A stretch of DNA of 64,000 nt from the NCBI GenBank assembly GCA_026702615.1, contig JAPPBY010000031.1:1-64000 (forward strand), in the 5' to 3' direction. Under the pieces are notes generated by a model, which was given only the letters and a program-made list of their open reading frames with translations, did not search any database and was not told where the DNA came from. Position numbers and translations under genes: made by a program. The stretch is from Chloroflexota bacterium. Lineage in GTDB: Bacteria; Chloroflexota; Dehalococcoidia; Tepidiformales; Tepidiformaceae. Positions 12,522 through 14,821 of the stretch are shown here, in pieces (the stretch's first letter is position 1; the number at the start of each line of letters is the position of its first letter).

Positions 12522-13337
12522 TCAGCGTTCGGGGGCGTCCTCGGCTCGAGAGAGCCGCCGTTCGAGCCTGCTGAGCGACTCCCGCGCCGCCCGTAGCTCT
12601 TCGACCAGCTCATCCGTGGTTGGCACCTGCTCCAGCTGCCGGAGCCGCTCCTGTTTCGCCTCGTCCAGGTTGTTGATGACGACGGCGATAAACAGGTTGA
12701 TGGTCACGAACGAGCCCAGCACCACGTAGCTGACGAAATAGATCCACGCGAACGAGTTCAGCTCCATCGCCACGTACATGATGTCGGTCCAGTCCTCCAG
12801 CGTGACGACCCGGAAGAGCGAGAGCAGCGAGATCCCCAGGTTGTCCCAGTGCTCCGGGTCGTGCTCGTGGAACAGCTCGTAGCCGACGATCGCGTAGATG
12901 TAGGACAGCACGCTCATCACGGCCACGATGTGCAGCATCCCCGGGATCGAGCGCACCAGCGTTGTCACGATGAGCCGTAGCTCCGGCACGGCCGAGACCA
13001 GCCGCAGCAAGCGCATCAACCGTGCCAGCCGGGCAACGACTGCGAAGGTGCCTACCGCGGGAATGAGGGAGAGGACGATGATCGTGAAGTCGAAGACGTT
13101 CCAGTTGTCGCGGAAGTAGCGTTCCGACCGCGGCGCCAGCGCCAGCATCTTGAGCGCCGCCTCGACGATGAAAATCGCGATCGTGGTCCAGTGGCCCGCG
13201 TTGAGCCAGGCCGAGTACCCCTCCTTGATGCTGGGGATCGTCTCCACGCCCAGCAGTACCCCGTTCCCGAGGATCAGGCCGATGATGAAGTACTCGAACT
13301 GGCTCGATCCCGTGATGCGCCCGGCGAGCTTCACCAT
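12522..13337 (-). CDS. bacterial voltage-gated cation channel (BacNav/BacCav type)
   Basis: 271 residues. Six-TM single-repeat channel: S1 15-35, S2 48-67, S3 81-97, S4 with Arg103, 106, 109 and 112 every third residue, S5 133-153, pore 168-186, S6 196-222, and a charged C-terminal coiled coil (225-268) that tetramerises such channels. The filter reads TLEDWTD (179-185). Characterised Na+ channels such as NavAb have TLESWSM; the engineered Ca2+-selective CavAb has TLDDWSD. Here the +1 and +4 acidic residues of CavAb occur naturally, so Ca2+ permeation is plausible. Separate from the K+ channel gene by 90 nt with its own promoter-like element. Confidence 0.92.
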   Translation of the reverse strand: MVKLAGRITGSSQFEYFIIGLILGNGVLLGVETIPSIKEGYSAWLNAGHWTTIAIFIVEAALKMLALAPRSERYFRDNWNVFDFTIIVLSLIPAVGTFAVVARLARLMRLLRLVSAVPELRLIVTTLVRSIPGMLHIVAVMSVLSYIYAIVGYELFHEHDPEHWDNLGISLLSLFRVVTLEDWTDIMYVAMELNSFAWIYFVSYVVLGSFVTINLFIAVVINNLDEAKQERLRQLEQVPTTDELVEELRAARESLSRLERRLSRAEDAPER

Positions 13338-13427: not shown

Positions 13428-14171
13428 TCAGCGAGCGTACCGGCGCGCCCGAAGCTGACGCTGCCTGATCCTCAGGTCCCGGAGTGTAGGTGCGCGCGCT
13501 GGCTGCCGCGGTTCTCTCACCATCAGTGTTGCAACAGACGCGGTCGTGACCGAGAGCGCCGCGATCCCAAAGATCATCAGGAAGCTCGCTACCCCCCGCC
13601 CAACCGGCGTCACCGGCGCGTAGTCGCCGTAGCCCACCGTCGTCAACGTAACGAGCGCCCACCACACCGAGTCGCCGAGGGAAGTGATCTCGCTCTCCGA
13701 GTGGTTGTGTTCGGCGGCGAAGACGAGACTTCCCCCGCCCACCACCGCGACCAGCAGGCAGGCGACCACGAACGCGGTACCCCGTCGCAGGAAGAATGAC
13801 CGGATGATGCGGGTATTCAGCCCAAGCACTGCGGCGAGTCGCAGGAGCGCAAGCAGTCGCACGAGTCGCAGTGGCCGCAGGAAGGGGAGCACGACCATCG
13901 CCACCTCAAAGGGATGGGTCCGCACGTACCGCCACCGGTCGGGCGCGACGAGCAGCTTTGTCCCAAAGGCCACCGTGAAGGCTCCCCAGATGCAGTAGTC
14001 AGCGATCAGGAACCAGCGATCGGCCTGCTCGGACACATCCGTCGTCAGCGGTAGCAGGAGCAGGGGGACCATCAGCAAGGCCAGCGCCAGCAGGGGAAAC
14101 TCCGTCGCCCGCTCGATTCGCGTGAGGCGTTCCTCGCTCCTTTCCACTCGGAACCGCTCTCGCACCGTCAT
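13428..14171 (-). CDS. voltage-gated-like K+ channel
   Basis: 247 residues; ATG at 14171 overlaps the stop of the upstream selenoprotein gene (ATGA). Six hydrophobic segments; S4-like helix around 96-112 with Arg99, 102, 105 and 111; pore helix then TTVGYGD (177-183), the K+ selectivity filter; last TM 194-216; Arg-rich C-terminus. Belongs to the Kv/ion_trans_2 group. The translational coupling to a peroxiredoxin-like gene suggests redox-linked membrane physiology, which is inference. Confidence 0.92.
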   Translation of the reverse strand: MTVRERFRVERSEERLTRIERATEFPLLALALLMVPLLLLPLTTDVSEQADRWFLIADYCIWGAFTVAFGTKLLVAPDRWRYVRTHPFEVAMVVLPFLRPLRLVRLLALLRLAAVLGLNTRIIRSFFLRRGTAFVVACLLVAVVGGGSLVFAAEHNHSESEITSLGDSVWWALVTLTTVGYGDYAPVTPVGRGVASFLMIFGIAALSVTTASVATLMVREPRQPARAPTLRDLRIRQRQLRARRYAR

Positions 14172-14821
14172 GACGACAGCTCCCTGACCGCCGCCACGAT
14201 GTCCTGCGGTTCCATCCGGTACCGGTAGTCCGACAGGCAGTGCCGCGAGCGGATCGCCCCAGCCATGTCGATGACGAACGTCGCCGGCACCGGCAGCCTC
14301 CACTCCGTCGCCGGGTTGCGGTCCGGGAATCCCAGACCCCGATAGGCCGCCTTCAGCCGCTCCGGCAGTTCGAAGCTGAGGCCGTACGCGTCCATCACCG
14401 CGCCGTCGCTGTCCGTCAGGATCGGGATGTCCGTCTCGACGTTCGCGAGCAGCCTGCGCGCGTTCTCCTCCGTCTCAGGGCCGACGAAGAACAGCGTCGC
14501 TCCCAGGTCGCGAAGCTCGTCATGTCGTCGCTGCAGACCCTGCAGCTCGATGTTGCAGAACGGTCACCACTCGCCCCGGTAGAACGAGACGACCGCCGGC
14601 CCCTGTGCGAGCACCTCGCTCAGGCTGGCCGTGCGGTCGTGCGTCACGTCGTGGAGCTCGAAGTCCGGCGCCTGCGCGCCCACGTCGAGCGCCCGTCCGA
14701 TCGTCGCCGCTTCGATCTCCGCGATGGCCGCCTCCACCGTCTCCATCAGCTGCGGCGCTCGCTCGGCGAAGCCGTCGCGCAACACCTTCAGTTCGTCGTC
14801 AAGGAGCCTGTCCTCTGCCAT
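14168..14821 (-). CDS. peroxiredoxin-like (AhpC/TSA) selenoprotein with in-frame UGA (Sec86)
   Basis: One reading frame of 218 codons interrupted only by TGA at 14566-14564. Residues before it end FYRGEW and those after it begin PFCNIELQGL, so the UGA replaces the first Cys of the family motif FYRG-x-W-C-P-Y/F-C-N, giving a U-x-x-C redox motif. Everything downstream is intact: DLGATLFFVGPE, IPILTDSDG, PVPATFVIDMAGAIRS, DYRYRMEP. A hairpin with a GGU loop follows 24 nt after the UGA. These proteins reduce peroxides or act as thiol oxidoreductases in the cytoplasm. SD GGGAGGG precedes ATG 14821. The alternative, a nonsense mutation, is less likely because substitution is exactly at the redox Cys. 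No sel genes are in the window. Confidence 0.88.
14530..14546 (-). promoter_or_regulatory. SECIS-like hairpin
   Basis: Minus strand: GCTGCAG, loop GGT, CTGCAGC, a perfect 7-bp stem with a three-base GGU apical loop, starting 17 nt and looping 24 nt after the UGA. Bacterial SECIS elements bound by SelB sit in this range and need an exposed G/U-containing apical loop. A short lower helix (TCG/CGA) can extend it. The element is within the coding region, as in known bacterial selenoprotein genes. Confidence 0.75.

Follow-up and report, generated by a model that had tools for sequence, protein, structure and literature searches.

A stop codon appears to break a gene on the minus strand of the window, as we call the whole 64,000-nucleotide stretch of Chloroflexota DNA analysed here. 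Judged from its sequence and that of its homologues, this gene almost certainly specifies a complete redox enzyme in which the UGA stands for selenocysteine (Sec). We hold with high confidence that a single peroxiredoxin-fold selenoprotein would be made from it, in which UGA 86 is decoded as Sec by means of SelB and a hairpin and in which Sec86 and Cys89 form the redox pair. Since mechanical ORF calling cuts the gene at its active site, a redox enzyme would be missed in uncultured Chloroflexota, and with it a part of a selenoproteome comprising at least five UGA genes.

Reading frame, codon 86 and gene neighbourhood

The frame comprises 217 codons and a TGA stop, and its sole internal TGA is codon 86 (Table 1). 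The preliminary description had reported this single internal TGA between FYRGEW and PFCNIELQ, and both its coordinates and its flanks were reproduced. A Shine-Dalgarno-like GGGAGG is located a few bases 5' of the ATG. The Pfam domain AhpC-TSA (PF00578) spans the TGA (residues 47–192, 86.9 bits versus a cutoff of 26), and because of this match and because the frame with its TGA is kept in genomes of the same genus as well as of other families, it goes beyond chance. Other frames of the window that combine a UGA with a nearby Cys codon were scanned and none was convincing by eye.

Table 1: Position of the putative selenoprotein gene, its elements and its neighbours in the window.
Feature	Position	Strand	Details
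Putative Prx-like selenoprotein CDS	14168..14821	(-)	ATG 14821-14819, TGA stop 14170-14168; 217 aa, predicted Sec = residue 86
In-frame UGA, predicted Sec codon 86 of U-P-F-C motif	14564..14566	(-)	codon comparison, 44 homologues
Cys89 codon TGC, Cys of U-x-x-C pair	14555..14557	(-)	invariant alignment column C89
Predicted bacterial SECIS hairpin	14530..14546	(-)	stem 14546-14540 / 14536-14530, GGU loop 14539-14537
Ion-channel gene, 3' neighbour	13428..14171	(-)	PF07885, 64.5 bits
Single-domain Ion_trans channel	12522-13337	(-)	176.7 bits; adjoins PF07885 channel gene

To compare codon 86 we combined a class-wide search (393 genomes) with a phylum-wide search (400 genomes), which gave 44 usable homologues. 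The codon is TGA in 13 of them and TGC or TGT in the other 31 (18 and 13, respectively), and no other codon is present. Unrelated residues at this position had been named beforehand as an argument against a selenoprotein, and only Cys or TGA was found. The TGA genes belong to six genomes of the same genus, including the genome of the window, and to seven genomes of three other families, so that four families are represented, and their proteins share 32–95% identity with the window protein. The same TGA is present in four named Chloroflexi/Dehalococcoidia MAGs, which are most likely identical to four of the genus members. The selA gene was found in 12 of the 13 TGA genomes, the remaining one being a draft of 84% completeness, and was absent from five of the 20 Cys genomes tested. 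Three of nine genomes from the same genus have selA and no full-length copy of the selenoprotein gene, which is therefore either dispensable or sometimes missed in drafts.

Mapping the Sec/Cys label on the gene tree requires four changes, and well-supported branches force three of these. The Cys form of genome G339 (L037) groups with a Sec gene (support 97/91) on a long branch, and no selA is detectable in this 88% complete genome. Both the grouping and the missing selA fit a reversion from Sec to Cys, the long branch notwithstanding. Genome G140 (L040) holds a Sec copy as well as a Cys copy, and the Cys homologues of L037 and L040 are located near or inside the Sec clade.

Purifying selection persists downstream of the UGA. 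Between genes of the same genus dN/dS is 0.10–0.34 downstream and, similarly, 0.15–0.27 upstream of it, whereas in the two shifted frames the downstream values are above 1, showing that the frame past the UGA is translated or was until very recently. Disrupted frames around the TGA had been named beforehand as speaking against a selenoprotein, and the downstream frame is intact and under this selection.

The ATG of the adjacent ion-channel gene overlaps the stop of the selenoprotein gene (ATGA) and the two are probably co-transcribed, while a luciferase-like monooxygenase gene lies upstream in divergent orientation. This order of selenoprotein, channels and luciferase-like gene is kept in the five other loci of the genus that were examined and was not found in the examined loci outside the genus, and the link to the channels is thus probably non-functional for the selenoprotein family overall. 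In G224 (L030) the channels and the luciferase-like neighbour are approximately 94% identical to those of the window and the selenoprotein only 76%, suggesting local recombination or uneven rates.

The hairpin and the selenocysteine machinery

Published bacterial SECIS (bSECIS) elements are modelled with a loop of 3–9 nt, a stem of 4–16 bp, a G in the first two loop positions, a distance of 16–37 nt from the UGA and an MFE of at most −7.5 kcal/mol (PMC13188914). The hairpin of the window, GCTGCAG-GGT-CTGCAGC, agrees with all these constraints (PMC13188914) as it has a 7-bp stem, a 3-nt GGU loop and −9.8 kcal/mol, with 17 nt from the UGA to the stem and 24 nt to the loop. Stem, loop and spacing are exactly as given in the preliminary description. 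For the homologues we searched the range 15–36 nt past codon 86 for contiguous stems of 4 bp or more that close a loop of 3–8 nt, again with a G in its first two positions, and scored the best one. No TGA gene lacked a qualifying hairpin (13 of 13, mean −9.4 kcal/mol), in contrast to the Cys homologues, where the mean is −1.4 kcal/mol and 18 of 31 have none. The stems vary by lineage and the GG or GU of the loop stays: besides GCTGCAG/GGT we found GCTGCAG/GTT or GTC, GCTGCA/AGGTG, ACCTTGA/GGT in another register and a 10-bp ATTTGGAGCT/GGA. Judging from this pattern, we take the differing stems of the TGA genes to serve one purpose.

Against a null of synonymous recoding the window gene has a single-gene P of 0.20, whereas the f59 genes reach 0.04–0.06 and the most distant gene 0.0045. 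The window hairpin is not significant here because the favoured codons for L-Q-G-L-Q (CTGCAG...CTGCAG) tend to give a hairpin, and as it proves little alone, it is the contrast between Sec and Cys homologues that carries the weight. Among the six genes of the genus, seven of eight degenerate codons for invariant residues are identical in the hairpin region versus 30 of 73 in the rest of the downstream part (Fisher P = 0.015, a rough guide for related sequences). RNAalifold on the six relatives found no compensatory pairs, in a weak test with two of the six slices offset in the alignment, and folding of the whole region was unremarkable (z −1.12). An Rfam search of the gene gave neither a SECIS nor any other credible RNA match, as expected, since to our knowledge bSECIS elements have no sequence consensus.

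The genome of the window (38 contigs, 95% complete) contains the complete machinery for Sec insertion. We detected a tRNA-Sec (71.1 bits), also called as tRNA-Sec with a TCA anticodon by ARAGORN, and selA (515.9 bits), selB (298.7 bits) and selD (347.4 bits), each above its curated cutoff. A genome lacking selA, selB, selC and selD had been named as a finding that would speak against Sec, and the whole set is present. A TGA is also found in the frame of selD itself, at the U of GCGGUASK (context LTDLTGCGGUASKAGPEAL). According to the mechanism that we propose, the ribosome would read UGA 86 as Sec via tRNA-Sec(UCA), which SelB would bring while attached to the GGU-loop hairpin immediately 3' of this UGA.

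Two further loci were noted in the same genome, whose selenoproteome list consists of matches from family searches. A Sec peroxiredoxin of the canonical type with an in-frame TGA in an AFTGGUTSEM motif (TxxU) is encoded by L078 (G000:C26:112557-112928, minus strand). At L079 (G000:C27:112045-113495, minus strand) two genes for ResA-like proteins lie in tandem, their products having ASWUGC motifs (WAxxUGC). One of these proteins was scanned and scored 268 bits with NF041054 WAxxUGC_long versus a cutoff of 300; they are probably selenoproteins as well.

Other explanations for the in-frame UGA

A single base change turns TGC or TGT into TGA, and the gene is missing from some genomes of the genus, as might be expected for a pseudogene whose Cys codon was lost and which is now decaying. 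This is very improbable, as the TGA is kept in 13 species from four families over a deep divergence (down to ~32% identity), the downstream dN/dS is as low as 0.10–0.34 and neither a second stop nor a frameshift is present. The same closeness to a Cys codon, together with the draft state of the genome, would also suit a sequencing or assembly error at codon 86, which we regard as still more improbable than decay because the same TGA is found in other assemblies of related species.

That ordinary suppression, or an altered code, places Trp or Cys at the UGA deserves slightly more credit than decay but is very unlikely too. UGA-Trp codes exist in other organisms and nothing in favour of such decoding was found here: the window gene's own stop is TGA, the genome has a full Sec system, the residue in the homologues is Cys and never Trp, and the hairpin accompanies TGA genes and not Cys genes. 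Two short proteins, an N-terminal product of 85 residues and a C-terminal one made by re-initiation, would agree with the mechanical call of an 85-aa ORF ending at the UGA. The cut would however fall at the active-site helix of the peroxiredoxin fold, which starts at residue 87, and the Cys homologues run as single proteins across codon 86, making this as improbable as the decaying gene.

Fold, active-site motif and relation to known selenoproteins

The AlphaFold model of the putative selenoprotein, built with an alignment of 16 sequences, reached a pLDDT of 92.5 and a pTM of 0.90. It resembles peroxiredoxins (Z ~21), with AhpE from M. tuberculosis (Z 21.4, rmsd 1.5 over 152 residues) and others being matched, and ResA-type thiol:disulfide oxidoreductases are matched too, by Foldseek and by sequence. 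Residue 86 is located directly before the active-site helix. In the alignment with the genome's own TGGU peroxiredoxin, a canonical Sec-peroxiredoxin (TxxU) of the same fold with a peroxidatic Sec, Sec86 is located on the Thr and Cys89 on the Sec of this paralogue, and Sec86 would therefore stand where a thioredoxin-like CxxC has its nucleophile. The canonical peroxiredoxin motif PxxxTxxC/U is not found, its Thr position being the Sec of UxxC. The UGA had been described as replacing the redox Cys; its place in UxxC holds, but the Cys that it replaces is of the thioredoxin type, the first one of CxxC, and aligns with the Thr of TxxC/U. Thus the enzyme, not being a canonical Sec-peroxiredoxin by its motif, is better called a Prx-like UxxC thiol oxidoreductase. 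TxxU and UxxC proteins of one fold in one genome, together with orthologues that have Sec in one sister genome and Cys in another, offer a compact system for studying the advantage that Sec brings at either motif position.

We infer that the gene is expressed, with Sec inserted, and that its product is probably cytosolic. The Sec86-Pro-Phe-Cys89 pair would alternate between the reduced selenol/thiol and a selenenylsulfide, which is the likely oxidised intermediate. In this cycle the pair would reduce a peroxide or disulfide substrate and be restored by a thiol reductant.

The cataloguing of Prx-like UxxC selenoproteins goes back to 2006–2008 (PMC1794560, PMC2398784). The kinds listed include a 'Prx-like thiol:disulfide oxidoreductase' (PF00578, UxxC/UxxU) and 'Prx-like 1' (PF00578, UxxC), the latter with 225 selenoproteins in the GOS data (PMC13188914, PMC1794560, PMC2398784), and a PF00578 domain with UxxC defines the Prx-like thiol:disulfide oxidoreductase selenoprotein (PMC13188914, PMC2398784). 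The window protein has both, as have the 'Prx-like 1' proteins of the GOS survey, and in either case Cys homologues outnumber the Sec forms (PMC1794560, PMC2398784, PMC13188914 Table 1). We therefore assign the window gene, matched by domain and motif as described, to this known kind as a new addition. Set against that description, it is distinguished by the signature FYRGxWUP(F/Y)CN and an N-terminal helical extension. None of the NCBIfam models reaches its cutoff with the window protein, the best match being the SelL-related redox protein NF040769 with 42.4 bits, far under its cutoff of 120.

A further relative is the peroxiredoxin-like family cd02970, of which the catalogued Sec form is UxxS (PMC13188914) in contrast to the UxxC of the window protein. 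Plasmid-borne Cys homologues of the window protein are annotated as 'peroxiredoxin-like family protein', in line with a likeness to this family. The signature FYRGxWCPYC is presumably typical of cd02970. It is conceivable, although we consider it somewhat less probable than the opposite, that the TGA genes represent an uncatalogued Dehalococcoidia subfamily of the FYRGxWCPYC group, a UxxC type whose Sec takes the place of the peroxiredoxin Thr and which has a TGGU peroxiredoxin alongside, and from which G339 may have reverted to Cys with loss of selA.
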